Below are positions 20,159 through 32,524 of a stretch of DNA of 64,000 bases, piece by piece. A program made the translations under genes and the position numbers. The stretch's first letter is position 1. Each line of letters starts with the position of its first letter. Under the pieces are notes generated by a model, which worked only from the letters and a program-made list of their open reading frames with translations, did no database searches and was not told where the DNA came from. This DNA is from Arthrobacter sp. Bi26 (GTDB lineage Bacteria > Actinomycetota > Actinomycetes > Actinomycetales > Micrococcaceae), in NCBI RefSeq assembly GCF_918697925.1, contig NZ_CAKKMF010000005.1, forward strand, positions 1 to 64,000. The letters run 5' to 3'.

Positions 20159-20887
20159 TCATCGCACGGGGGGACTGTCATGCTGGGCGGCTGACCGAAG
20201 GCTGTTGTTCAGGATCAACGGCAGCAGGGCCGCGGGGGAGGGGGCAACGGCGGCCGCATGCGACCCTTCTTCGACCTCCCCGTAGCCCCAGAGTGCGAAT
20301 ATCGTAGGGATTCCGTGTTCGGCTGCTCCCGCAACGTCGTAGCTTCGGTCTCCGACCATTGCGGGGTTGGAGATGTCCACGCCTTCGGACTGGAGCCGGT
20401 GCAACAATTCGGCGATGACCTCAGCCTTGCTCGCTCTTCCTTCGGAGTCCGACGCACCGCATACGTTGATGAAGTAGCCTTTCATTCCAAACCTTCGTGC
20501 GAGCCTTTTTGCCTGGTCTTCCACCTTGGAAGTGGCGACAGCCATTGGAATTCCGGCCAAGTGCAGGTGTTTGAGCAGGTCCATAATCCCGTCGTATGGG
20601 CTGGACTGTTCAGCCCCGTGATCGGCGTATGCATTGCGGTAGTGTTGGAGGGCCTTTTGGGCGGTTTTTTCGTCCAGTCGTGAGACTGTTCTGAAGGATT
20701 CGATCATCGGCGGGCCGACGAATCGGCGCAGTTTTTCCATCGCGGGCACTGGCGCGCCCACCGCTGCCAAGGCTTGGGCAGCACTTGCTGTAACGCCGGG
20801 TGCTGAATCCAGGAGCGTCCCGTCCATGTCGAACAAGATGCAGCTAATGCCAGTGAGAGAGGGCCGGACCTGGTGCAGAAGTGTCAT
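20159..20887 (-). CDS. HAD-superfamily hydrolase, phosphoglycolate-phosphatase-like
   Basis: A 242-aa phosphatase. Motif I is ILFDMDGTLLDSAPGV with both aspartates, motif II is MAVATSK, and motifs III-IV are around ASKAEVIAEL and MVGDRSYDVAGAAEHG. A helical cap follows motif I (class C1). The frame is open to 20965, but that ATG overlaps the divergent Lrp start codon; ATG 20887 (MTLLHQVRPSL) leaves room for two promoters and is preferred. Divergent from the AsnC/Lrp regulator, which may control it. The substrate is unknown. Confidence 0.88.
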   Translation of the reverse strand: MTLLHQVRPSLTGISCILFDMDGTLLDSAPGVTASAAQALAAVGAPVPAMEKLRRFVGPPMIESFRTVSRLDEKTAQKALQHYRNAYADHGAEQSSPYDGIMDLLKHLHLAGIPMAVATSKVEDQAKRLARRFGMKGYFINVCGASDSEGRASKAEVIAELLHRLQSEGVDISNPAMVGDRSYDVAGAAEHGIPTIFALWGYGEVEEGSHAAAVAPSPAALLPLILNNSLRSAAQHDSPPVR

Positions 20888-20963
20888 TTTTTCAAGGGCT
20901 TTCGGTCTTGAAGTTGGTTCCGTTCCGGTTGGGTCCGGAGGATTATTGCTGTGAAGGGTAGGC

Positions 20964-21431
20964 ATGGATCGGGTGAGTCTTGATCAGATAGATCAGAGGA
21001 TTCTTGCGGAGCTCACGAAGAACGCTCGCATGAGCCATGCAGAGCTGGCGACCAAAGTCCTCCTGTCGAGGAATGCTGTGCGCCAGCGGATCGAACGGAT
21101 GGAGCGGCAGGGGTACATCCAGGGGTACACAATTGTTGCCGGCCCTCCAGGCCAGGGCCCTGTGTCCGCCTTCCTGATGGTTTACCGGAAGGACCGGGTG
21201 CGGGGGGCGGACGTCATCTCCGTGTTGCGGTCGATTCCGGAAGTGGTTCTGTGCGATGTAGTGAGCGGTGACTTTGATCTTCTGGTGAGGGTCGAGGCAC
21301 GGTCGCTGGAGAGGGTTCAGGAGATCTGGGAGCAGATCGCGGCCATTCCCGGAGTCACGGACACGGTGACGGCCATGACGCTTTCCAGTTACATCAGGCG
21401 GGGAACCGGAGGGGCCCGCGCCACGGAGTAA
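20964..21431 (+). CDS. Lrp/AsnC-family regulator
   Basis: A 155-aa protein. The N-terminal helix-turn-helix is LDQIDQRILAELTKNARMSH, AELATKVLLSRNAVRQRIER; the C-terminal RAM ligand-binding domain (about 70-145) contains VVLCDVVSGDFDLLVRVEA. Such proteins sense amino acids. It lies between a divergent HAD gene and the convergent aspA gene (7 bp between stops), next to an aspartate/homoserine-type operon, so an amino-acid signal from that pathway is plausible. Confidence 0.93.
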   Translation: MDRVSLDQIDQRILAELTKNARMSHAELATKVLLSRNAVRQRIERMERQGYIQGYTIVAGPPGQGPVSAFLMVYRKDRVRGADVISVLRSIPEVVLCDVVSGDFDLLVRVEARSLERVQEIWEQIAAIPGVTDTVTAMTLSSYIRRGTGGARATE

Positions 21432-21437
21432 ATGTGA

Positions 21438-22847
21438 TCAGGCCCCGGACATGTCCGCACTTCTGACGGGCAGCACTGCGGATTCAAGCAGTAACTGAGC
21501 TGTGTCCCGGTCCAATAGGTTCCTTCTGGTGACGATGTCCAGAATGGTTGACCCGTCCTGGTGGGCTTCCTTAGCCACCGCTGCTGCGGCGGCATACCCG
21601 ATGGCCGGTATTAGGGCCGTTGCAAGACCCACCGAGACTGCCGTCTGGCGGGCGAGGCGTCCGGTGTTCGCTTCAATGCCCTCCATGCAGTATCGACGAA
21701 GTGCGCGTGATCCTTGTTCGAGCCATGAAATGCTCTGCAGAAGGACATGGGCAATGACAGGTTCGAAGGCATTGAGCTGGAGTTGCCCGTTGTCTGCAGC
21801 CATCGTCACTGTGGTGTCAGCTCCGGCGACAGCGAAGGCAATCTGATTCATGGTCTCCGGAATGACCGGGTTGACCTTTCCCGGCATGATTGATGACCCG
21901 GCTTGGCGCGGGGGCAGGATGATCTCGCCAAAGCCGTTCTGTGGCCCGCTCGACAGCAGCCGGAGGTCGCTGCTGATTTTGGAGAGCTTGATGGCCGTGC
22001 GTTTCAGCATGCCCGACATGTGCATGAAAACGCCAACGTCGGAGGTCGCTTCGATGAGATCAGCGGCCGGAAAGACCGGAACGCCGGAGATCTCGGACAG
22101 CGCCCGAAGTACGAGTTGCTGATACCTGGGTTCGGCAGTGATACCGGTCCCGATGGCGGTGGCGCCCAGACTGCACTCGAGCATCAGCGCTGTGGATTCC
22201 ATAAGCCTGGAGCGGTCCTCTTCCAGCATCGCTGCGAAGGCATTGAACTCCTGCCCGAGGGTCATCGGGACGGCGTCCTGAAGCTGGGTTCTGCCCATCT
22301 TCACAACGTCGGCGAATTCAGCGCCCTTGCTCCGGGCTGATTCGGCAAGTTTGCCCAACTCGCGGTTAAGCTCTGCGGTAGCGAAAATCAGTGCCAGCTT
22401 GATCGCCGTTGGATAGGTGTCATTGGTGGATTGGCACCGGTTGACGTGATCAATGGGATGCAAGTGCTGGTATTCGCCGCGGCGGTGGCCCAGTTTTTCC
22501 AGCGCAAGGTTCGCGATTACCTCGTTGGCGTTCATGTTCGTGCTCGTGCCGGCGCCGCCCTGAATGACGTCCACGCAGAACTGTTCGTGGTGATTTCCGT
22601 CCTGGATTTCCAGGCACGCTTCGCGGATCGCCGTGGCTTCCCGCGGGTTGAGGATACCAAGTTCGCAGTTGGCCTGCGCCGCAGCGTTCTTGATCATGGC
22701 CAGGGAACGCACCAGATGCGGGTGGCGGGAGACAGGTGTCCCGCTGATGGTGAAGTTTTCCAAGGCCCGGGCGGTGTGTGCTCCCCAGTAGGCTGTGGCC
22801 GGTACAGGTACGTCCCCTAGCGAATCCGTCTCGATGCGGGTGGTCAT
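21438..22847 (-). CDS. aspA: Aspartate ammonia-lyase
   Basis: A 469-aa member of the fumarase II/aspartase superfamily, converting L-aspartate to fumarate and ammonia. Signature GSSIMPGKVNPVIPE carries the flexible catalytic-serine loop; other class features are QGGAGTSTNMNANEV, HPIDHVNRCQSTNDTYPTA and GRTQLQDAVPMTLGQEF, the last typical of aspartases rather than fumarases. ATG 22847 is chosen because it matches the family N-terminus (TRIETDSLGDVPVP). It is last in a three-gene operon after homoserine dehydrogenase and an aldehyde dehydrogenase, which together could degrade homoserine to fumarate. Confidence 0.92.
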   Translation of the reverse strand: MTTRIETDSLGDVPVPATAYWGAHTARALENFTISGTPVSRHPHLVRSLAMIKNAAAQANCELGILNPREATAIREACLEIQDGNHHEQFCVDVIQGGAGTSTNMNANEVIANLALEKLGHRRGEYQHLHPIDHVNRCQSTNDTYPTAIKLALIFATAELNRELGKLAESARSKGAEFADVVKMGRTQLQDAVPMTLGQEFNAFAAMLEEDRSRLMESTALMLECSLGATAIGTGITAEPRYQQLVLRALSEISGVPVFPAADLIEATSDVGVFMHMSGMLKRTAIKLSKISSDLRLLSSGPQNGFGEIILPPRQAGSSIMPGKVNPVIPETMNQIAFAVAGADTTVTMAADNGQLQLNAFEPVIAHVLLQSISWLEQGSRALRRYCMEGIEANTGRLARQTAVSVGLATALIPAIGYAAAAAVAKEAHQDGSTILDIVTRRNLLDRDTAQLLLESAVLPVRSADMSGA

Positions 22848-22948
22848 GGTTTTCCGTTCTCTGAGTGGAAGTTTGGGTGTGGCGTAGCAGCGGGCCGCTC
22901 CGAGGGAGCTGGAGGGGCGCAGGACCCGGCGGCGCCCCTCCATTTCGA

Positions 22949-24361
22949 TCAGTTCTTGATGCAGATGACTTTGGGCTGGGTCATCTCCTCATACGCGAAA
23001 TGGACGCCTTCCCTGCCCATGCTCCCGTACTTGGCCCCGCCGAACGGCATGCCGTCGAAGCGGTAGTCAGAGGAATCATTGATCATGACGCCGCCTGCCT
23101 CGAGCTGGCGGGCTGCGTCCATGGCCTTGGCCAGGGAGTCGGTGAATATACCTGCATGAAGGCTGAACTCGATGGCATTGGCGACGTCGATGGCCTCTTC
23201 GAAGGTGTTGAATTTACGAAGCATGACCACAGGGCCGAAGACCTCCTCCCTCCACAGGCTGCTTTCCGCCGGGACGGCTTCCAGGACGGTCGGCTGAAGC
23301 ACATTGCCGTCCGTGATATTGCCTGAGAGCAGGACAGCGCCGTCGTCGAGGGCCCCGTCCAGCTTGGTCTGGAGCTCCTGTAATGCTGTGGGGCTGATCA
23401 TGGGTCCGACGTCGGTCCGTTCATCCGATGGATCTCCGGTAACCAACTGTGCCGTTGCCGCCAGGAAACGCTGTCGGAAAGCGCCGTACACTGGGGCGGC
23501 TACCAGGATCCGCTGCACCCCCACGCAATTCTGGCCTGCGGCCCAAAACGCTCCGGAGACGCAGGATTCCACGGCGTTCTCGATGTGGGCGTCGTCCAGG
23601 ACTATCACGGCTGCATTGCCGCCAAGATCCATGGAGAGCTTCTTCAGGCCCGCGGTGCGGGCGATACTCTCACCAGTGGAGAACCCCCCGGTGAAGGACA
23701 CCATTCGTACGTCCCGGGACCGAATAAGAGTTTCGGCCACATCCCGGTCGCCATGAACAATCGTGAGGGCCTCTTCCGGGAGCCCGGAGCTCACGAGGGC
23801 GTCCGTGAGCAGCTGGGCTGATAGGGGAGTCAGTGCAGAGGGTTTGAGAATCACGGCGTTTCCTCCGGCGATTGCCGGGCCGATCTTGTGTGCCACCAGG
23901 TTCAGGGGATCGTTGAAAGGAGTGATCGCGGCAATGATTCCCAGTGGTTCGCGGGAGTACCATCCGGTGCGGTCCTCTGAGCCCTCGTACGAGTCAAAGG
24001 GTATGACTTCGCCGGCGTTCCGGCGTGCTTCGGCAGCCGAGAGGCGGAGCGTGTTGACCGCACGCAGTACTTCCTTCCGTGCCTGGCGGATCGTTTTCCC
24101 GGCCTCGGACACAATCGTTTGCGCGAACTCCTCGTTGCGCTGCTCGATCTCCGTTGCGGCGCCGTCCAGTATCTTCCCGCGTGCGTTGCGGGACAGTGCC
24201 CGTGCCTTCCGGGCGCCGACGCGGGCCGTTTCGATCACGGCTTTGCCGGCGGTGGCCTCGGTCAGCGAAACCGCGCCGACCACTCTGCCGTCGTAGGGGC
24301 TCAACACGTCGCGGAACTGCGGCAGCGCCGTTTCCGTCGAGCACAGCGTGGATTCAGACAT
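22949..24361 (-). CDS. NAD(P)-dependent aldehyde dehydrogenase, candidate aspartate-semialdehyde oxidiser
   Basis: A 470-aa ALDH. The catalytic Cys is in [14 protein letters not shown] (about residue 280); the cofactor region is [20 protein letters not shown] with [10 protein letters not shown]; the C-terminal part has [13 protein letters not shown] and [14 protein letters not shown]. The general-base region reads [16 protein letters not shown], with Asp where most ALDHs have Glu (ELGG). Similarity is greatest to lactaldehyde/phosphonoacetaldehyde/succinate-semialdehyde types. The start overlaps the end of the homoserine dehydrogenase gene by 8 bp. From context, oxidation of aspartate semialdehyde to aspartate is my inference; succinate semialdehyde is the alternative. 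Confidence 0.88.
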
Positions 24362-25406
24362 TTGCGGCTACTTCCGTCCTGGCTGCGTGCATTGCGATGA
24401 TGTCGGAGAGCAGGGCATAGGCGGTCTCCACACGGCCGGCTCCCGGCCCGGAGACGGTTACCGGGCCCAGAAGGTCGGTGTCGAAGGACACGGCATTGGT
24501 TGCGCCGGAAACCCCGGCCAGCCCATGGCCGAGGGGGAGCGCTACGGGGGAGACGCCTGCGGTCACTGACCCGTCCGGGTTCCGCCGCGCTGAACCCACG
24601 AGCTTCCAGCGGCGTCCCTCGCGGGTTGCCTTCTGGATATTCTCCGGCGTCACAGTCGAAATCCCCTCCCGCTGAACGTCCTTTAGTTCGATGCCTGCGT
24701 CGAGCAGCTCGTTGGCGAGGATAAGTACCTTGAGCTGAACGTCGTATCCCTCGATGTCTGCTGCGGGATTGGCTTCGGCGTAGCCGCGTTCCTGTGCCTC
24801 GCTGATGGCCTCTTCGAAGTCCAGTCCGGATTCCATCCGCCCGAGCACATAGTTGCTGGTGCCGTTGAGGATGCCTTCGAACCCGTTCAGCTTCAGCCCC
24901 GCGAACATTTTCTTGGCCAGGCGGATGACGGGAGTGCCGCTCATGACGGCACCCTCGAACTCGAAGTGCACGCCGTTCTGTTCGGCCAGGGCAGTCAGTT
25001 CGGCGCCGCGGAGGGCAACCGGGCCCTTGTTCGTCGTGCAGACGCTCTTGCCGGATTCGAGGGCCCAGCGTACGTGCGAAACTGCTGGCTCGCCGTCGTC
25101 GGGATTCGTGAAAGTGGCCTCGCAGATGATGTCGGCGGTGCAGTCACGGATAACTGATTCGTTATTGGTGTCCGCGGACCCGCCATGGGCGGCGAAGGTT
25201 TCGCTTCCACCGTCCAAGTTGAGTGCGATGCCCAGGTCGATCCCCTCGGGCTGGACCAGCGAGCCGAGGCGCAGGTCGGTGATGGCCACGACACGCAGGC
25301 CGAAGCCCAGCTCGGAACGAAGTGTGTCACCGCGTGTTGCGACCAGTTCGGCCAGCGTCCTGTTGACGCCGCCGAAGCCGATCAGCGCAATGTCATAGGT
25401 GGTCAT
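24354..25406 (-). CDS. Homoserine dehydrogenase, short form without ACT domain
   Basis: A 350-aa oxidoreductase linking homoserine and aspartate semialdehyde. N-terminal Rossmann motif [16 protein letters not shown], then [44 protein letters not shown], and the catalytic region [20 protein letters not shown] with the conserved Asp and Lys. Biosynthetic actinobacterial Hom proteins are longer (about 430 aa) because of a threonine-sensing ACT domain, which is missing here. Position at the head of an operon with an ALDH and aspartase, divergent from a permease, suggests catabolic use. Confidence 0.9.
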
Positions 25407-25549
25407 GGTGCTCCTTCAGTCAGTTACATCGGTCCTCCAATGCTCACCGCATTCCATGTCCGTCAGTGCATGTCATTGTGACTGAAAAACAGGGCGAACT
25501 GACCATCTGTCTGCCGATTCGACAGCAGCGCCTCGAGGTAACTTAGGTG

Positions 25550-25573
25550 CAACATAAGCATGTTGAAATGTTT
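25550..25573. promoter_or_regulatory. Operator-like site in the divergent hom/permease promoter region
   Basis: AAGCATGTTGAAATGTTT (25556-25573) matches 31292-31309 in 14 of 18 positions; it overlaps the inverted repeat CAACAT-AAGC-ATGTTG (25550-25565). The 300-bp interval 25407-25707 must hold both divergent promoters. The regulator is probably one of the two nearby IclR proteins. Confidence 0.6.
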
Positions 25574-25707
25574 TTAATGACCCAAACGCCGTTTTCGTGT
25601 TACTTTCATCACTACCGCCACTGCACAGCCCGAGGCGCCCTGTCCCCCATGCCGGGGCGATGTGCGCATCTTTCGCATCAGACCTATCCACTCACCTGGG
25701 AGAAACC

Positions 25708-27147
25708 ATGGAACCCTCATCACCTGTCCAGCTAGACCCACAGCCCACGATTCCCCCGTCGACCGACTCCGGGCTCCGGCGGTCCATGGGGGCACGCCAT
25801 CTGGTCATGATCGCCATGGGCGGGGTGATCGGCTCAGGGCTGTTCCTGAGCTCGGGCTACACCATTTCCCAAGCCGGACCGCTCGGGGCGGTCATCGCCT
25901 ATCTGATCGGCGCCTTTGTTGTGTACCTGGTGATGGCCTGCCTCGGCGAGCTTGCCATCGCTTATCCGGTCTCAGGCGCCTTCCATATTTACGCGGCGAG
26001 GTCGATCGGGCCGGCCACCGGGTTCGCCACGGCCTGGCTCTACTGGCTCTGCTGGGCAGTGGCCATCGGATCGGAGTTCACTGCCTCCGGTCTCCTCATG
26101 CAGCGCTGGTTCCCGGATGTTGACGTCTGGGTCTGGTGCGTCATCTTCGCCTCGGTCCTCTTCGGCTTCAATGCAGTTTCCTCGAAGTTCTTCGGCGAGT
26201 CCGAGTTCTGGTTTGCCATCGTCAAAGTCGGTGCCATCGTGGTCCTCATCGTTCTTGGTGGCGCGGCGCTGTTCGGCATCCACCCGCTCAGCGAGGCGGG
26301 CAGCCACCCGTTCATGTTTGAGAACTTCAACACCTCCAGCGGTCTCTTCCCCAACGGTTTCAGCGGCGTTCTCGTCACTGCACTTGCAGTGTTCTACGCC
26401 TTCTCCGGCTCGGAACTCATCGGTGTGGCAGCGGGCGAAACAGCTGACCCCGCCACCAGCATCCCCAAGGCGATGCGCAGCACAGTCATCCGCCTGCTGA
26501 TCTTCTTCGTCGGGGCAATCGCTGTCATCGCGGCTACCATCCCCTTCGATCAGGTCGGCCTGGATGAAAGCCCGTTCGTGACTGTCTTCTCATCCATAGG
26601 CATTCCCTTTGCCTCCGACATCATGAACTTCGTCATCATCACCGCACTCCTCTCCGCTGGAAACAGCGGCCTCTTCTCCTGCGCACGGATGCTCTACTCC
26701 CTTGCCGACGAGGGGCACGCCCCCCGGGCGCTGAAGAAACTGACCCGAGGCGGTATCCCCATAATCGCGCTTTCAGTCAGCATGCTCGGAGGCCTTGCGT
26801 CGCTCATCAGCAGTGTCGTTGCGCCCGAAACGGTCTACCTGGCTCTTGTTTCAGTGGCAGGTTTCGCCGTCGTCGGGGTCTGGATGTCCATCACCGCCTC
26901 GCACTTCTTCCACAGGAGATCCTTCGTCAAGAACGGCGGCGATGTCGCCGCCCTTCCCTACAAGGCACCGCTGTTCCCGCTTGTGCCGATCCTGGCCTTT
27001 TCGCTCTGCCTTATTTCGCTGATCGGCATCGCTTATGACCCGAACCAGGTAGCAGCCCTCTATTTCGGAGTTACTTTTGTTGGCGCCTGCTACGCCTTCT
27101 TCTACTTCAAGTACGGACGCAAGGCGCGCGCAAACCAAGTGTCCTAA
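25708..27147 (+). CDS. APC-superfamily amino acid permease
   Basis: A 479-aa transporter with twelve predicted membrane segments, AAT family. Marks are GLRRSMGARHLVMIAMGG, GSGLFLSSGYTISQAGPLG, YAFSGSELIGVAAGETADP and SAGNSGLFSCARMLY. ATG 25708 with GGGAGA is preferred over an upstream in-frame start. It heads an operon with a racemase and an IclR regulator, divergent from the homoserine dehydrogenase operon, so its cargo is likely the amino acid (D or L) degraded there. Confidence 0.92.
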   Translation: MEPSSPVQLDPQPTIPPSTDSGLRRSMGARHLVMIAMGGVIGSGLFLSSGYTISQAGPLGAVIAYLIGAFVVYLVMACLGELAIAYPVSGAFHIYAARSIGPATGFATAWLYWLCWAVAIGSEFTASGLLMQRWFPDVDVWVWCVIFASVLFGFNAVSSKFFGESEFWFAIVKVGAIVVLIVLGGAALFGIHPLSEAGSHPFMFENFNTSSGLFPNGFSGVLVTALAVFYAFSGSELIGVAAGETADPATSIPKAMRSTVIRLLIFFVGAIAVIAATIPFDQVGLDESPFVTVFSSIGIPFASDIMNFVIITALLSAGNSGLFSCARMLYSLADEGHAPRALKKLTRGGIPIIALSVSMLGGLASLISSVVAPETVYLALVSVAGFAVVGVWMSITASHFFHRRSFVKNGGDVAALPYKAPLFPLVPILAFSLCLISLIGIAYDPNQVAALYFGVTFVGACYAFFYFKYGRKARANQVS

Positions 27148-27169
27148 CGCCGTCATCAACTATCGCCTA

Positions 27170-27189
27170 CCGGGGACTTTCGTCCCCGG
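27170..27189 (+). terminator. Hairpin between permease and racemase genes
   Basis: CCGGGGAC and GTCCCCGG flank the loop TTTC in the 68-bp gap. There is no U-run; it could act as an attenuator lowering downstream expression or as an mRNA-processing stem. Confidence 0.55.
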
Positions 27190-27215
27190 CCGAGAAGCTG
27201 TTCAACGGATAATCC

Positions 27216-28379
27216 ATGAATTCACAAGACCTGATACAACGCGTGCGCAGTTCGGCCCTCGACGCCGGCAGCTGGCTGGAGATTGACGCCGCAGCTTTCG
27301 AGTCAAACGTCCGGAACCTCCTGTCCATGATCGATAACCGGGCGCTCCTGTGCGCAGTGGTCAAGTCCCATGCCTACGGACACGGAGCTGACCTTTTGCT
27401 CCCTTCCCTTGTTCGCCTAGGCGTTCCCTTCGTCGGCGTAGGAAGTAACGAGGAGGCAGCCATTGCACGCCGCTGCGGTTTTGCGGGCCGGATTCTGCGT
27501 GTCCGTGCCGCGGCGCCGCAGGAGATCAAGGCTGGCATGCGTCACGACATCGAAGAACTTGTTGCCGACCCGCAGAGCGCCTGGGAGATGCACAAGATCG
27601 CTGCCGAGGCCGGGACGGCGATCCGCATCCACCTCGATATCAATGCTTCCGGGATCAGCAGGCACAGCCTCGACGTCTCATCCACGCTTGGGCGGGCATC
27701 CGCGGTAGGGATCGTTAGCCACCCTGGGCTTCTACTGGCCGGGATCATGACGCATTTTCCCAAAGACGATACCGGCCATATCGAAACGGCTCTACTGCGT
27801 TTCCGCAGTCAGGCGTTGACGCTGCTCCAACTGACCGGAACGCGCCGGGAAGACGTGCTGCTCCACTGTGCCAACTCCTACGCCGCGCTGCACGTACGCG
27901 GCTCGTGGCTGGACATGGTCCGTGCCGGGGCAGTCCTCTACGGCGATTCGGAACCTGCAACAGGGCACTTCCAACGGTGTTTGGCCTTCAAAGCCCGGAT
28001 TGCGTCCATTAATAGCTATGCAGCAGGCACTAAGGTCGGCTACGGGCTCACCCATACCTTGGACCGGGACTCCAGGCTGGCGTCAGTGACAGCAGGTTAC
28101 GGAGATGGCTACCGGAGGGCACTGGCCAGCCAAGGCAGCGTACTTGTCCGCGGCCGTCGCGCTGCCATAGTCGACATCGTTTCGATGAATTCCATGGTTG
28201 TCGACGTCACCGACGTGGTGGGAGTTTTCCCTGGAGACGAAGTCGTGTTGTTCGGGCGGCAGGGACGCGCAGAAATCGCTCCCGCAGAACTGGAAGCAGC
28301 GAATTCAGCGATACTCGCTGACCTCTACACTGCGTGGGCGCAAGGAAATCGCGTCCTGGTCAACAATGAAGACATGTGA
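27216..28379 (+). CDS. Alanine-racemase-family PLP enzyme
   Basis: A 387-aa fold-type III PLP racemase. The PLP lysine lies in LLCAVVKSHAYGHGADLL (about residue 50), the N-terminal barrel follows, and the second catalytic Tyr is in GTKVGYGLTHT (about residue 273) with MNSMVVDVTDV in the C-terminal beta domain. Length fits alanine racemases. Its place between an amino-acid permease and an IclR regulator, away from cell-wall genes, suggests a catabolic racemase feeding a D-amino acid into the adjacent pathway; broad-specificity or homoserine/serine racemase activity is possible. Confidence 0.88.
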   Translation: MNSQDLIQRVRSSALDAGSWLEIDAAAFESNVRNLLSMIDNRALLCAVVKSHAYGHGADLLLPSLVRLGVPFVGVGSNEEAAIARRCGFAGRILRVRAAAPQEIKAGMRHDIEELVADPQSAWEMHKIAAEAGTAIRIHLDINASGISRHSLDVSSTLGRASAVGIVSHPGLLLAGIMTHFPKDDTGHIETALLRFRSQALTLLQLTGTRREDVLLHCANSYAALHVRGSWLDMVRAGAVLYGDSEPATGHFQRCLAFKARIASINSYAAGTKVGYGLTHTLDRDSRLASVTAGYGDGYRRALASQGSVLVRGRRAAIVDIVSMNSMVVDVTDVVGVFPGDEVVLFGRQGRAEIAPAELEAANSAILADLYTAWAQGNRVLVNNEDM

Positions 28380-28416
28380 GAATAGGCGTAGTCATCGGGC
28401 GGAAGGAGCACGGAGC

Positions 28417-29217
28417 ATGGATTCTTCCTCGGAAGCGTCGTCTATGGCCCAAGGACTTCGAATTGTTCGCCTGGTCGCAGACCGGGAGAAGCGGGGCAGG
28501 CGGCTTCTCGGCGTTTCCCAGCTCGCATCCGAGTTGGATATGGAACAAAGCCGCGTCTCAAGGCTGACGCAGGAATTGTGTGAGTTGGGACTGCTGGAGC
28601 GAGTCGAACGCGGTCCCTTCCGAACCGGTCCAAGTTTTTTCAGCCTGGCCGCAGCGCTGAATACCGGCTGGGTCCGCGAATCAAGAGCCGAACTTGAGGC
28701 TTTGGTGGCTTCTTTCGGCCTTAGATCCAGAGTTTCCGTCCGTGATGGCTTCCGGGTCGTTCTCCTGCGGGCCTCCAGTAACGATGCGGTTCCCGGCAGC
28801 TTCGTGAAACCCGGCATGGTGACGCCCGTGTGGTGTACCGGCTCCGGACGGGCCTTGCTGTGGGACCACCAGCATCCAGCCGTTGAAGTCCTTCTCCAGG
28901 AAGTCAACTTTATCGGCGTAGGCGGTCCGGGGGCGGCCCATTCGCCGCGAGAAGTCGCCGAACTGATGGACCGGGACAGGGCGCGGGGCTTCATTGTCGC
29001 GGAGGAAGAATTCGAGCACGGAATCTACGAACTGGCCGTTCCCGTCCGCAACGCTGATGGATCAATTCTTGCCGCGCTTAGCGTCCTCGGCAGCCGGGCC
29101 GAGATCAAACCCAGCACCAATGACATTGCAAAGGCCCTTACGGCAGCAGCCGAACGGCTGGGGTCCTTTGAGGGCCGTCCCCGGGGCGACGCGGGCCGGA
29201 AGGGCCTTGCCAGCTAG
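28417..29217 (+). CDS. IclR-family regulator (first copy)
   Basis: A 266-aa regulator. The N-terminal winged helix (residues about 8-70) includes RRLLGVSQLASELDMEQSRV, SRLTQELCELGLLER; the C-terminal effector domain contains GSGRALLWDHQHP, DRARGFIVAEEEFEHGIYEL and VPVRNADGSILAALSV. ATG 28417 has GGAAGGAG upstream. Third gene of the permease-racemase operon. Its stop overlaps by four bases the stop of the convergent second IclR gene. Confidence 0.92.
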   Translation: MDSSSEASSMAQGLRIVRLVADREKRGRRLLGVSQLASELDMEQSRVSRLTQELCELGLLERVERGPFRTGPSFFSLAAALNTGWVRESRAELEALVASFGLRSRVSVRDGFRVVLLRASSNDAVPGSFVKPGMVTPVWCTGSGRALLWDHQHPAVEVLLQEVNFIGVGGPGAAHSPREVAELMDRDRARGFIVAEEEFEHGIYELAVPVRNADGSILAALSVLGSRAEIKPSTNDIAKALTAAAERLGSFEGRPRGDAGRKGLAS

Positions 29218-29990
29218 AGCCGGTTCTGCGGCGACGCGTGACCCAACGTTGACTCAAGCCACTTGCCCCAGGACACGAGAGCCGTCGCGCATAGCCCCAG
29301 CCGCGGCTCCAAACGTGTCTTGGCGCCTACGACCTGAAGCGCTGCCACCACATCGCCCTTAAAGTCGCGAATCGGAACGGCCAGGGAGTAAAGTCCTGGT
29401 TCGGCTTCCTCATCGACAATGGAGTACCCCCGTGCCCGCGCCCCGCGCAGTCGTGACAGGAAGTCCTCGACGTCAAGCGGTGTATTGGGGCCATGGCGCA
29501 CGAAGGGAACGCCGGAGAAAATGGTTCGGACCTCGGCGTCCGAGGCTTCCCACAGCAGGGCCTGGCCGGCATCACTACAAAACGCCGGGTAGGGCCGGCC
29601 CAGCCACGAACCGACCATGTTGCTACTTGCCGGAACACGCTCACCGATGGTGACAGTACTGTTTCCGCTCATAACTCCGAGGAAGCATCCTTCGTCAGTT
29701 TCACCGGCCAAGCCTTCCAAGGCGGTTACGCCGTCGGTCTGCAGCCGTTGCTCTGTCAACAGCTGTGCGTCTGTCAGGAGCGACCAGTTCAGGGTGTAGG
29801 ACCGATGGTCTCCGCGTGCCAGAAACCCCTCCTGCTCGGCGGTCCGGAGGCTGCGCGAAACCTGGCTGCGGTCCCTGCCCAGATCGGCTGCTATATCAGC
29901 GACCGTTCCGCCAGACAGGCCTTCTGCGTTGCGGGAGCCCACCGCGAGGACAGCCATGATTCCCCGGCCCATGCTGGACGTCTTAGACAT
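29214..29990 (-). CDS. IclR-family regulator (second copy)
   Basis: A 258-aa regulator with GLSGGTVADIAADLGRDRSQ, VSRSLRTAEQEGFLARG as winged helix and a C-terminal effector domain (DAGQALLWEASDAEVR, GARARGYSIVDEEAEPGLYS, LAVPIRDFKGDVVAALQVVG). ATG 29990 is preferred over an upstream start that would add 32 low-complexity residues. It is third in the NIF3-like/cyclase operon. It is homologous in organisation to the first copy, giving the cluster two convergent IclR genes, each ending one of the divergent sub-operons. Confidence 0.9.
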   Translation of the reverse strand: MSKTSSMGRGIMAVLAVGSRNAEGLSGGTVADIAADLGRDRSQVSRSLRTAEQEGFLARGDHRSYTLNWSLLTDAQLLTEQRLQTDGVTALEGLAGETDEGCFLGVMSGNSTVTIGERVPASSNMVGSWLGRPYPAFCSDAGQALLWEASDAEVRTIFSGVPFVRHGPNTPLDVEDFLSRLRGARARGYSIVDEEAEPGLYSLAVPIRDFKGDVVAALQVVGAKTRLEPRLGLCATALVSWGKWLESTLGHASPQNRL

Positions 29991-30021
29991 GGATCCGATT
30001 CTAGTCCCTGGAGAACGTGTC

Positions 30022-30774
30022 TTAGTGGATGGCGAAGACCCGGGCTGGAAAACCGCTGCCGTGCAGGGGCTTCGGCCAGCTTGCAATGAGGATCGCGCCG
30101 GCTTCTGGAAGCCCGTCCAGGTTCGCCATCAGCTCGATCTGCCACCGGTTCCGCGCCAAAACATAGGTCTCCAAGCTGAAATCCTGGCGGGACGTAGCCA
30201 GTCCCGGGTCTGTGTCTGTCTGCTCATGGCCGACGGCAGTTACCGACCGCTCCTCGATCAGGAAGGAGAGGACTTCCTGCGACCAGCCAGGCGTGTGGCT
30301 GACCCCCTTATCGTCCCTGTTCGCCATGGCGTCGGCGTCGGGCCAACGATGGCTCCACCCTGTCCGTAACGCCACAAAGGCCCCGGGGGCGATGGCACCG
30401 TTGCGGCTCTCCCATGCCTGGACGTCCTCCATCGTGGGAGTGGCGTCCGTATTTGCGGTGACCCGCGCGGTGATGTCGAGGATGGCCAGCGGAAGGACCA
30501 TATCCTCCACAGGAATCTGGTCCAAGGTCCGTCCCCCGCGGATGAAATGCGAGGGAGGGTCAACGTGCGTCCCCCATTGGCCGATGATCGAATAACGGTG
30601 AGCCGTGAAACCGTCGCCTTTCTCCAGATCGAACACCGCCTCCCTGATTTCGTCCGGGAATGCCGGGAAATGAGGCTGGCCGGGGTGGAAGGCGTGCGTC
30701 AGGTCGGTGAATGACCTGCCCGCCAGCAACGGCTGCAGATCGTCCCAAAGCCGGGTCGTGGTGGTTTCAATCAT
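30022..30774 (-). CDS. Cyclase-family metal-dependent hydrolase (kynurenine-formamidase-like)
   Basis: A 250-aa member of the cyclase family (PF04199). The metal-binding motif is QWGTHVDPPSHFIRGGRTLD (HxDxPxHF, about residues 68-82); LPLAILDITA, FVALRTGWSHRW and VGHEQTDTDPG with a second metal site follow. Family members hydrolyse amides, formamides or cyclic esters and imides. Its ATG overlaps the stop of the upstream NIF3-like gene. In this context a cyclic or N-acylated homoserine derivative is a possible substrate, but that is speculation. Confidence 0.87.
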   Translation of the reverse strand: MIETTTTRLWDDLQPLLAGRSFTDLTHAFHPGQPHFPAFPDEIREAVFDLEKGDGFTAHRYSIIGQWGTHVDPPSHFIRGGRTLDQIPVEDMVLPLAILDITARVTANTDATPTMEDVQAWESRNGAIAPGAFVALRTGWSHRWPDADAMANRDDKGVSHTPGWSQEVLSFLIEERSVTAVGHEQTDTDPGLATSRQDFSLETYVLARNRWQIELMANLDGLPEAGAILIASWPKPLHGSGFPARVFAIH

Positions 30775-31220
30775 GATGCGGCCTCGCTCTCAAAGACTGC
30801 CGGAAGGGCTGTGCTGGAGACGCTGACTGGCCCTGTCAGTTCGATGACCGGTACCTCCCACGGATGGACATCCACGATGTGCTGCAGGAAGCGTTCCACG
30901 GCGGCGTCAGGGGTCGCCACATCGAAATACGTCGTGAAGACCAAGGTATGTGAAATTGTCCGCTGGCCCACCTGCCCCAGCGTAGGGTTAGCGCCTTCAT
31001 TGCATGTGAACCCCTCGAAACCCAGGCCGGATTCGAATACATGCCTGTAGTTGCCAAAATCCCCTAAGTCAGGGGACTCCGACGAGGCCTGGAGCAGGGC
31101 CGCGATGCCGGCCTCATCTTTGAATGCTTCTGCGTCGCCGCTGGCGAGCCGCGAGAAAGTTTCCGAAGCTATGGGCCAATGCACGCGCAGCTTGCGGACT
31201 GATTTCATTGCAATTTTCAA
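30771..31220 (-). CDS. Stand-alone NIF3/YqfO insert-domain-like (CutA-like) protein
   Basis: A short protein of about 149 aa. The stretch GFEGFTCNEGANPTLGQVGQ, then an edge strand, then a C-terminal HPWEVPVIELTGPV, follows the pattern of the PII/CutA-like domain inserted in NIF3-family proteins (G.F....GANP..G..G ... HPYEEPAY). The true start is uncertain: TTG at 31220 has AGGAAGAGG at good distance, ATG at 31208 is also possible. Start of an operon with the cyclase gene (ATGA overlap). Function unknown; an oligomeric sensor or metal-binding partner of the cyclase is a guess. Confidence 0.6.
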   Translation of the reverse strand: MKIAMKSVRKLRVHWPIASETFSRLASGDAEAFKDEAGIAALLQASSESPDLGDFGNYRHVFESGLGFEGFTCNEGANPTLGQVGQRTISHTLVFTTYFDVATPDAAVERFLQHIVDVHPWEVPVIELTGPVSVSSTALPAVFESEAAS

Positions 31221-31291
31221 GGGAAGCCTCTTCCTGGGCAGCTCGCAAATGGTGTCTGAATGCCATGGTGGCATAGAGTGATGTTCATTAC

Positions 31292-31309
31292 AAGCATGAG
31301 AAAATGCTT
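31292..31309. promoter_or_regulatory. Operator-like site upstream of the NIF3-like/cyclase operon and mmuM
   Basis: AAGCATGAGAAAATGCTT contains inverted repeats AAGCAT/ATGCTT with a 6-bp spacer, and matches the site at 25556-25573. It lies about 80 bp before the NIF3-like start and 240 bp before the methyltransferase gene, in the only intergenic space (31221-31546) between these divergent genes. Confidence 0.65.
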
Positions 31310-31546
31310 ATTACGCACAAAATTAGAGGAGGCATTCGCGTTCACTCGGCACATCCGCCGGACTTTGGGCGTCACTGTGCCGCGGAACACCGGTCGCTGC
31401 AAGCGGCTGCTGACCGTCATCTGCAAGCCCGGGGCTGCACTGCGCTTTTGGCACTGCACGTTGTGCTACCTTGCATTGCCGGGCCACGAGGCGCCGCAAC
31501 TGCCCGGCAGGAAAGAACAAAACCGAAATGCTTGGAGCCCTGAACG

Positions 31547-32524
31547 ATGCCCAGTAACACGATGCTTTCCCGCATGCTCGACGCCGGAGCGAACCTGACC
31601 GTGGACGGTGCACTCGCCACCGAGCTTGAAGCGCACGGCTGCGATCTGGAAGACCCTTTGTGGTCGGCCAAAGTCCTTCTGGAACAACCGGAACTGGTCA
31701 AGCGCGTACACCACGACTACTTCCGCGCCGGAGCCACTGTCGCCATCACGGCGAGCTATCAAGCCACACCCCTGGGATTTGCGCGCCGCGGCATCGGCGA
31801 GGAAGTGGCCTTGGAACGGGTGGCACTGAGTGTGCGCCTGGCTGACGAGGCACGCCGCGAGTACCTGGCCGAAAACCCGGATGCGGGACCCCTGCTGGTT
31901 GCAGGATCAGTCGGGCCCTACGGCGCGTACCTTGCCGATGGATCGGAATACCGGGGCGACTATGTCCTCGGCCGAAACGAGTTTTTGGAGTTCCACCGGC
32001 CTCGAATCGCAGCGCTGGTGGAGGCCGGAGCGGACTTTCTTGCCTGTGAGACGCTGCCTTCATTGCCGGAGGCCGAGGCCCTGTTGGCACTCATGAAAGA
32101 GTTCGACGTCGAAGCCTGGCTCTCCTTCACGCTACGGGATGGCGGCCACATCAGCGACGGTACGCCGCTGGCTCAGGCGGCAAAGCTCTTTACGGCGGAG
32201 CCGCTCGTGGCGGCTATCGGCGTGAACTGCGTGCCGCTGGAGCTGGTCTCCCCATCGCTGGAGGCCCTGGGCAGAGCCACTGATACGCCCCTGATCGCAT
32301 ATCCGAATTCGGGCGAAAGCTATGACGCAGTCACCAAAACGTGGGGGCCGGCCGCGGCGAGCCCCGATAGCAAACAACCCGCAAGCCTTGCGGAGGGAAC
32401 GCCAATCTGGCGTGAACTTGGTGCCCGGCTCGTTGGCGGGTGCTGTCGAACGACCCCACAGGATATTGCCGCCGTGACGGCGCGCCCCACAGCACGCCGG
32501 AGAGGTTGGCGGGGACGGTCTTGA
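31547..32524 (+). CDS. mmuM: Homocysteine S-methyltransferase, C-terminus altered by a junction
   Basis: A 325-aa zinc enzyme methylating homocysteine from S-methylmethionine or a similar donor to methionine. Family marks are LTVDGALATELEAHGCDLED, FRAGATVAITASYQATP, ACETLPSLPEAEALL, IGVNCVPLELV and the zinc-binding LVGGCCRTTPQDIAAV. The last residues after IAAV (TARPTARRRGWRGRS) are unlike the family; the DNA there belongs to a DUF1097 fragment read antisense, so the last codons were replaced by a recombination junction near 32480. Zinc ligands are kept, so the enzyme may still work. Confidence 0.88.
   Translation: MPSNTMLSRMLDAGANLTVDGALATELEAHGCDLEDPLWSAKVLLEQPELVKRVHHDYFRAGATVAITASYQATPLGFARRGIGEEVALERVALSVRLADEARREYLAENPDAGPLLVAGSVGPYGAYLADGSEYRGDYVLGRNEFLEFHRPRIAALVEAGADFLACETLPSLPEAEALLALMKEFDVEAWLSFTLRDGGHISDGTPLAQAAKLFTAEPLVAAIGVNCVPLELVSPSLEALGRATDTPLIAYPNSGESYDAVTKTWGPAAASPDSKQPASLAEGTPIWRELGARLVGGCCRTTPQDIAAVTARPTARRRGWRGRS

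Follow-up and report, generated by a model that had tools for sequence, protein, structure and literature searches.

A 64,000-nt stretch of the genome of Arthrobacter sp. Bi26 (contig NZ_CAKKMF010000005.1, positions 1 to 64,000; hereafter the window) was analyzed, and one locus in it was found to be, quite probably, a homoserine dissimilation cluster, in which homoserine would be converted via aspartate to fumarate. The core of the locus is formed by the genes of a homoserine dehydrogenase (HSD) and an aldehyde dehydrogenase (ALDH), and an aspartate ammonia-lyase (AspA) is an optional add-on to this pair. The core HSD–ALDH pair is common to Arthrobacter, rhizobia and pseudomonads, and it is accompanied in Arthrobacter by a cyclase-family hydrolase (Cyc). 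For the part that leads from homoserine to aspartate, the catabolic reading has good support by inference, because HSD and ALDH strictly co-occur, are adjacent across phyla, and are encoded in addition to a separate biosynthetic HSD, and because the HSD falls in with a family reported to be oxidation-biased.

Among 121 genomes of the genus, HSD orthologs were found in 44, at 47 places, and ALDH orthologs were found in the identical 44 genomes, also at 47 places. The two genes were adjacent in all 46 loci that were fetched, as well as in the window. Since the same 44 of 121 genomes carry both genes, adjacent at 47 places, the link between them is more than chance. According to their identity, the HSDs were divided into three groups, namely clade A (14 sequences at 87–100%), clade B (20 at 76–82%) and clade C (13 at 65–68%, one of which is a partial match).

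The window HSD met the homoserine dehydrogenase model NF004912 (450 bits against a cut-off of 373). An earlier note, made from the letters of this DNA, had read the enzyme as lacking the ACT domain, and the Pfam search agreed: the NAD-binding (PF03447) and catalytic (PF00742) domains were found, with no ACT domain at E ≤ 1. The lysine and the aspartate that we take to be the catalytic residues were kept in 140/140 aligned cluster HSDs. In a FastTree phylogeny of 140 cluster sequences (135 distinct) and 7 biosynthetic HSDs, from which the genome's own biosynthetic HSD was left out, the cluster HSDs formed one clade apart from the biosynthetic ones (support 0.973), and the clade C HSDs branched outside a group of clades A and B plus two Streptomyces sequences (support 0.87). 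The HSD of the Rhizobium leguminosarum plasmid pRL8, which is 60% identical to the window HSD, also grouped with it, apart from the biosynthetic HSDs; it was taken as pRL80071 because it is the sole HSD annotated in the 25-kb stretch that was read. In PMC10228743, the Rhizobium HSD (ortholog pRL80071) is placed in an Arthrobacter nicotinovorans family that is strongly biased to homoserine oxidation. By analogy with the activity reported for a member of this family, the window HSD would oxidise L-homoserine to aspartate semialdehyde.

The same genome encodes a second HSD of 438 amino acid residues, which carries an ACT domain, lies between lysA and thrC, and scored below the NF004912 cut-off (267 vs 373). 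Because of this separate ACT-bearing HSD, a biosynthetic role of the window HSD was rejected. That the locus as a whole serves threonine or methionine biosynthesis, with the ALDH as a by-passer, is extremely improbable: an HSD is reversible in principle, and kinase-like or ThrC genes accompany the clusters of rhizobia and Pseudomonas, but both the second HSD and the absence of the HSD–ALDH pair from 77 of the 121 genus genomes speak against it.

The strict pairing of the ALDH with the HSD points to the oxidation of aspartate semialdehyde to aspartate as its inferred reaction. The catalytic cysteine and asparagine were invariant in 140 aligned ALDHs. At the position that we take to hold the usual general-base glutamate (residue 245 of the window ALDH), aspartate was found in 124 of the 140, including the window ALDH, and glutamate in 16, namely at the 13 clade C loci, in Priestia, and at L110 and L194, the latter two being unrelated ALDHs. 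It is quite improbable that the HSD and ALDH act on another substrate, for example as part of an ectoine route or another one via a semialdehyde, homoserine then being incidental. Sequence cannot reveal the substrate of an ALDH, and on a Priestia plasmid (L114) an HSD–ALDH pair (44% and 48% identity) lies inside an ectoine-type cluster with a PRK08249 enzyme; against this, no ectoine-degradation gene was found among the window genes scanned (20159–32521) or at two named Arthrobacter loci, and the HSD family and the pairing indicate aspartate semialdehyde in both settings. Ectoine degradation shares with the proposed homoserine route an ALDH acting on aspartate semialdehyde (DoeC, described as an aspartate-semialdehyde dehydrogenase in PMC10228743), but it has another entry route.

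The window AspA met the aspartate ammonia-lyase subfamily model NF008909 (677 against a cut-off of 510) and missed the stricter equivalog TIGR00839 (581 vs 681), which was likewise missed by the genome's second aspartase (C100; 667 vs 681). The GSSxMPGKxN loop (S, S, M, P, G, K, N) was kept in 52/52 aligned AspA sequences (50 distinct), together with the glutamine of GRTQLQDA, where fumarase has histidine. Of the 46 genus loci fetched, 23 carry AspA; with the window, this makes 24 of 47. The earlier note had drawn HSD, ALDH and AspA as one set leading to fumarate; the HSD and ALDH steps are well supported and the two genes strictly paired (44/121 genomes), while the AspA step proved to be optional. 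An AspA/fumarase-type match was obtained in all 121 genomes; two HSD-positive genomes (G421 and G456) have a single such match each (E about 1e-97 to 1e-99), which was taken as fumarase, and in these the route, if running, would end at aspartate.

Beyond the genus, the best 80 of 469 HSD relatives were scanned as named loci; as the ranking followed their likeness to a Paraburkholderia HSD, this sample leans to Proteobacteria. In 79 of the 80 loci the ALDH came directly after the HSD, separated from it by no more than 87 bp, the exception (L194) having a partial ALDH match 635 bp after the HSD, and the HSD-then-ALDH loci include Pseudomonas, rhizobia, Caballeronia, Streptomyces and Arthrobacter. 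AspA was near the HSD at 22 of these loci and a B3/4 protein at 10; HSD, ALDH and AspA occur together also in Streptomyces and rhizobia. On rhizobial plasmids the order HSD–ALDH–DapA–AspA–kinase-like–Lrp was seen, several of these clusters adjoining B3/4 and transporter genes, and on one such plasmid an insertion element separates HSD from ALDH. A pyridoxal phosphate (PLP) enzyme, 58–62% identical to the Priestia PRK08249 protein, was encoded at 41 of the 80 loci, all of them in Pseudomonas, together with HSD–ALDH, an MmuP-like permease (51–56% identical to that of the window) and Lrp, and no AspA was found at these 41. At the P. chlororaphis locus (L184, 1720–10468), the only one of the 41 in which LysR-type and ThrC genes were read, the order is PLP enzyme–permease–LysR-type–ThrC–Lrp–HSD–ALDH. 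Clusters elsewhere may thus be without AspA, or may contain DapA, ThrC or a homoserine-kinase-like protein in addition. Relatives of the Pseudomonas PLP enzyme in the genus had at most 38% identity among the matches listed. On a Burkholderia stagnalis plasmid (L116), the genes after HSD–ALDH encode transporter-like proteins, a PLP enzyme, a homocysteine-methyltransferase-like protein and a permease.

Several known systems were compared with the locus. As cited in PMC10228743, an HSD of this family lies close to the homoserine catabolism cluster of R. leguminosarum (Vanderlinde et al., 2014), and the oxidation-biased HSD of A. nicotinovorans was proposed for the use of homoserine as a carbon or nitrogen source (Liang et al., 2022). 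The latter enzyme is judged to be of the same kind as the window HSD from the family statement and the pRL8 relative, and the work as cited concerns a single enzyme. On pRL8 the HSD is followed by the ALDH, an AspA-like stretch and a homoserine-kinase-like gene. This plasmid resembles the window in HSD, ALDH, AspA-like stretch and Lrp, and differs from it in its ABC (ATP-binding cassette) transporters, the homoserine-kinase-like gene and the state of the AspA-like stretch (L108, 14682–15527), which is unannotated, with about 280 residues matched, and shorter than its relatives. Relatives of Cyc, of the PLP racemase and of the second IclR-type regulator (IclR2) of the window were not found in the 25 kb of pRL8 that were read.

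In canavanine systems, the HSD–ALDH pair (in rhizobia also DapA and AspA) has a B3/4 protein as its neighbour, joined in some species by a PLP enzyme. PMC10018355 ties the B3/4 protein and a homoserine-yielding lyase to canavanine, and it cites Hauth et al. (2022) for the use of canavanine by Pseudomonadaceae and Rhizobiales via homoserine. Neither a PLP lyase nor a B3/4 protein was found among the window genes scanned or at the Arthrobacter loci L205 and L207, and a canavanine front end was rejected for the window. In evolved E. coli, as described in PMC9792984, homoserine serves as a nitrogen source via threonine degradation and glycine cleavage; the nitrogen role is shared, but that route does not pass through aspartate. 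In the titles and abstract openings found, an HSD–ALDH–aspartase route in Arthrobacter was not stated, which is a weak negative, as subscription papers lay largely outside reach.

Cyc met the cyclase family PF04199 (132 bits against a cut-off of 23) and was found in 53 of the 121 genus genomes, namely in 44/44 HSD-positive and 9/77 HSD-negative ones; the figure for this co-occurrence under independence (2e-24) takes no account of kinship and should not be read as a probability. The unit permease–(racemase)–IclR1–IclR2–Cyc–small protein is still present in ten clade C genomes in which it is separated from HSD–ALDH, either on a different contig or by 30 kb or more. Two more HSD-positive genomes, G442 and G455, carry IclR2, Cyc and the small protein away from the HSD locus. 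Clade C, with its outlying HSDs, is a partly independent repeat of the co-occurrence. In eight of the nine HSD-less genomes with Cyc, it is grouped with the small protein, the permease and both IclR genes, and the ninth locus is cut short by the contig end. Because of the 44/44 vs 9/77 distribution, which includes the unlinked cases, Cyc probably belongs to the homoserine system, where it may release homoserine from a precursor.

A possible but rather doubtful alternative is that the imported substrate is, instead of free homoserine, homoserine lactone or an N-acyl-homoserine from quorum signals, which Cyc opens before the rest of the cluster burns the homoserine. The constant presence of Cyc in HSD-positive genomes is in keeping with this, and the solved-structure relatives of Cyc include isatin hydrolases, which open a ring. 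Its motif HxGTHxDxPxH has glutamine at the first position (residue 66), where the nearest solved relative (8f9x) has the histidine that we take to be a metal motif residue; the glutamine was found in 59/59 aligned sequences (57 distinct), from Arthrobacter to Lactiplantibacillus, and this departure counts against the lactone reading. To our knowledge, no lactonase activity is known in this subfamily. Moreover, Cyc is also present in the nine genomes without the HSD pair, and four Cyc relatives inspected in other phyla have other gene settings. According to PMC5474475, homoserine lactone meets the whole carbon and nitrogen need of Arthrobacter isolates, and isolates of Burkholderia live on it too; the window-type cluster is a candidate for the genetic basis of this growth in Arthrobacter. 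On a Lactiplantibacillus plasmid (L228), a Cyc relative (40% identity) adjoins an APC permease and a MetE-like methyltransferase.

For the homoserine dissimilation cluster, the following order of events may be proposed. The permease would bring in homoserine or a close precursor, from which Cyc would probably free homoserine, and the racemase, where present, may channel the D-form into the L-route. L-Homoserine would be converted to aspartate semialdehyde by the HSD and further to aspartate by the ALDH, and the dedicated AspA would release fumarate and ammonia, yielding both carbon and nitrogen; in genomes without a local AspA, the route would end with aspartate or continue through another aspartase. 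The likely regulators are Lrp and both IclR proteins.

Several observations weigh against this proposal. The co-occurrence counts in the genus ignore kinship. Among the 25 best of the 45 NCBIfam models that matched the ALDH, none reached its cut-off, the top match being lactaldehyde dehydrogenase (448 vs 650). As many as 23 of the 47 genus loci are without AspA, and the AspA-like stretch of pRL8 looks incomplete. The HSD of an Agrobacterium pusense plasmid (L110) has no ALDH of this type alongside. The racemase is present in just 18 of the 44 HSD-positive genomes. A 36-bp element conserved upstream of the permease scored below zero upstream of the HSD in 13/13 cases in which the HSD and permease loci are separate. 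Finally, the best model for the permease is that of the S-methylmethionine permease, not one for homoserine (NF008484, 612 vs 716).

An S-methylmethionine cluster, in which MmuP-like import and cleavage to dimethyl sulfide and homoserine would precede HSD, ALDH and AspA, is nevertheless unlikely. The model match of the permease favours it, but lies under the cut-off. MmuM, a homocysteine S-methyltransferase (NF007020, 399 against a cut-off of 215), is encoded at 20 of the 46 fetched loci and, where the HSD is missing, beside the unit at 8 of 9 loci; as a control neighbour, it showed a far weaker link to the HSD than Cyc did, being found in 37/44 HSD-positive genomes (missing in 7) and in 35/77 HSD-negative ones. 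Because of the latter count, S-methylmethionine was kept merely as a rival. The related permease that accompanies HSD–ALDH and the PLP enzyme at the 41 Pseudomonas loci also speaks for it, and S-methylmethionine as the substrate at those loci is a guess; no cleaving enzyme was recognised among the genes scanned.

The varied gene settings of HSD–ALDH suggest a reusable unit. It is therefore tentatively put forward that HSD–ALDH may be a portable hub from homoserine to aspartate, joined to front ends of various kinds that release homoserine: in rhizobia and some pseudomonads a canavanine lyase, at the 41 Pseudomonas loci a PRK08249-like PLP enzyme with an MmuP-like permease, and in Arthrobacter a permease with the glutamine-type Cyc and the small protein, the source of homoserine there being its lactone, S-methylmethionine or something related. 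If this were true, the genes that let Arthrobacter grow on homoserine lactone, as has been reported, would be at hand. Homoserine inhibits the growth of several microbes. A well-defined path by which homoserine enters the citric acid cycle would account for the ability of soil Arthrobacter and others to live on it, would suggest roles for this ALDH, Cyc, the small protein and PRK08249-like enzymes, and would give marker genes for the turnover of homoserine and signals in rhizosphere genomes.

The features of the locus are listed in Table 1. The open reading frames and strands given in the earlier note were borne out when the window was read again, and profile matches confirmed the permease, racemase and IclR genes on the strand opposite to HSD–ALDH–AspA. 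The description as one overlapping operon holds for HSD and ALDH, the reading frames of which overlap by 8 bp, but not for AspA: its family-fitting start (22847) lies about 100 bp past the ALDH, with an in-frame ATG also at 22943. The interval 21438–28379, which had been said to hold the IclR gene, ends before IclR1 (28417–29217), and the gene set as drawn had left out Lrp, the second IclR, Cyc and the small protein.

Table 1. Genes and a candidate operator of the putative homoserine dissimilation locus, in window coordinates.
Feature	Position	Strand	Remarks
HSD, catabolic-type homoserine dehydrogenase	24354..25406	-	350 aa; PF00742 + PF03447; NF004912
ALDH, aldehyde dehydrogenase	22949..24361	-	470 aa; PF00171
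AspA, aspartate ammonia-lyase paralogue	21438..22847	-	NF008909; optional member
Inverted repeat CAACAT-AAGC-ATGTTG, HSD/permease gap	25550..25565	strandless	candidate operator
Amino-acid permease	25708..27147	+	closest model NF008484, S-methylmethionine permease, below cut-off
PLP racemase, alanine/broad-specificity type	27216..28379	+	TIGR00492; optional member
IclR1, IclR-type regulator 1	28417..29217	+	PF01614/PF09339; ATG at 28417
IclR2, IclR-type regulator 2	29214..30086	-	PF01614; start codon uncertain
Cyc, cyclase-family hydrolase	30022..30774	-	PF04199
Small conserved protein adjoining Cyc	30771..31274	-	no Pfam or NCBIfam match
Lrp/AsnC regulator, convergent with AspA	20964..21431	+	PF13412/PF01037
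MmuM, homocysteine S-methyltransferase	31547..32524	+	NF007020; frequent neighbour, loose link only

The permease showed 84–91% identity across the mapped loci. The racemase met the general alanine racemase model TIGR00492 (186 against a cut-off of 168) and missed the alanine racemase subfamily NF009879 (382 vs 434), and its nearest solved structures include broad-specificity racemases. It was found in 18 of the 121 genus genomes, all HSD-positive, at the HSD locus in 12 and beside the separate Cyc unit in 6. The operon AspA was present in 17 of these 18; in the remaining one (G478), the racemase frame has a stop at codon 22. The sole basis for the use of D-homoserine, which the earlier note had raised and which stays an idea, is the occurrence of this racemase gene.

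The small protein next to Cyc gave no Pfam match at 1e-5 and no NCBIfam match at 1e-10. Among 68 loci examined, it lay within 300 bp of Cyc in 52/52 loci having either, and its HWP and HPWE motifs were invariant. Its structural model (mean predicted local distance difference test score of 70) has a CutA-like fold of low confidence; the 38 Foldseek matches at E ≤ 0.001 comprise three NIF3-related chains and mostly CutA1 or designed-cage chains, with TM-scores of about 0.36–0.46 by query length.

The inverted repeat CAACAT-AAGC-ATGTTG is the sole exact match in the window. Most of 34 intergenic regions contain a related element, the spacing of which is almost constant; in several it was degenerate or not found. 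The 36-bp model was built from these regions, some training sites being poorly aligned (lowest score −12.3). Upstream of the permease, 17 of 18 other loci scored 24.5–44.9 and one 16.5, compared with a shuffled maximum of 10.1; since the scored regions are homologous, this recurrence means conservation, not binding. A regulon shared via this DNA motif was rejected, the element being absent upstream of the HSD at the 13 separate loci mentioned above. Within the genus, IclR1 was conserved together with the permease and IclR2 next to Cyc. A relative of Lrp was encoded at 41 of the 46 fetched genus loci (>50% identity) and at 75 of the 80 named loci (>40% identity).

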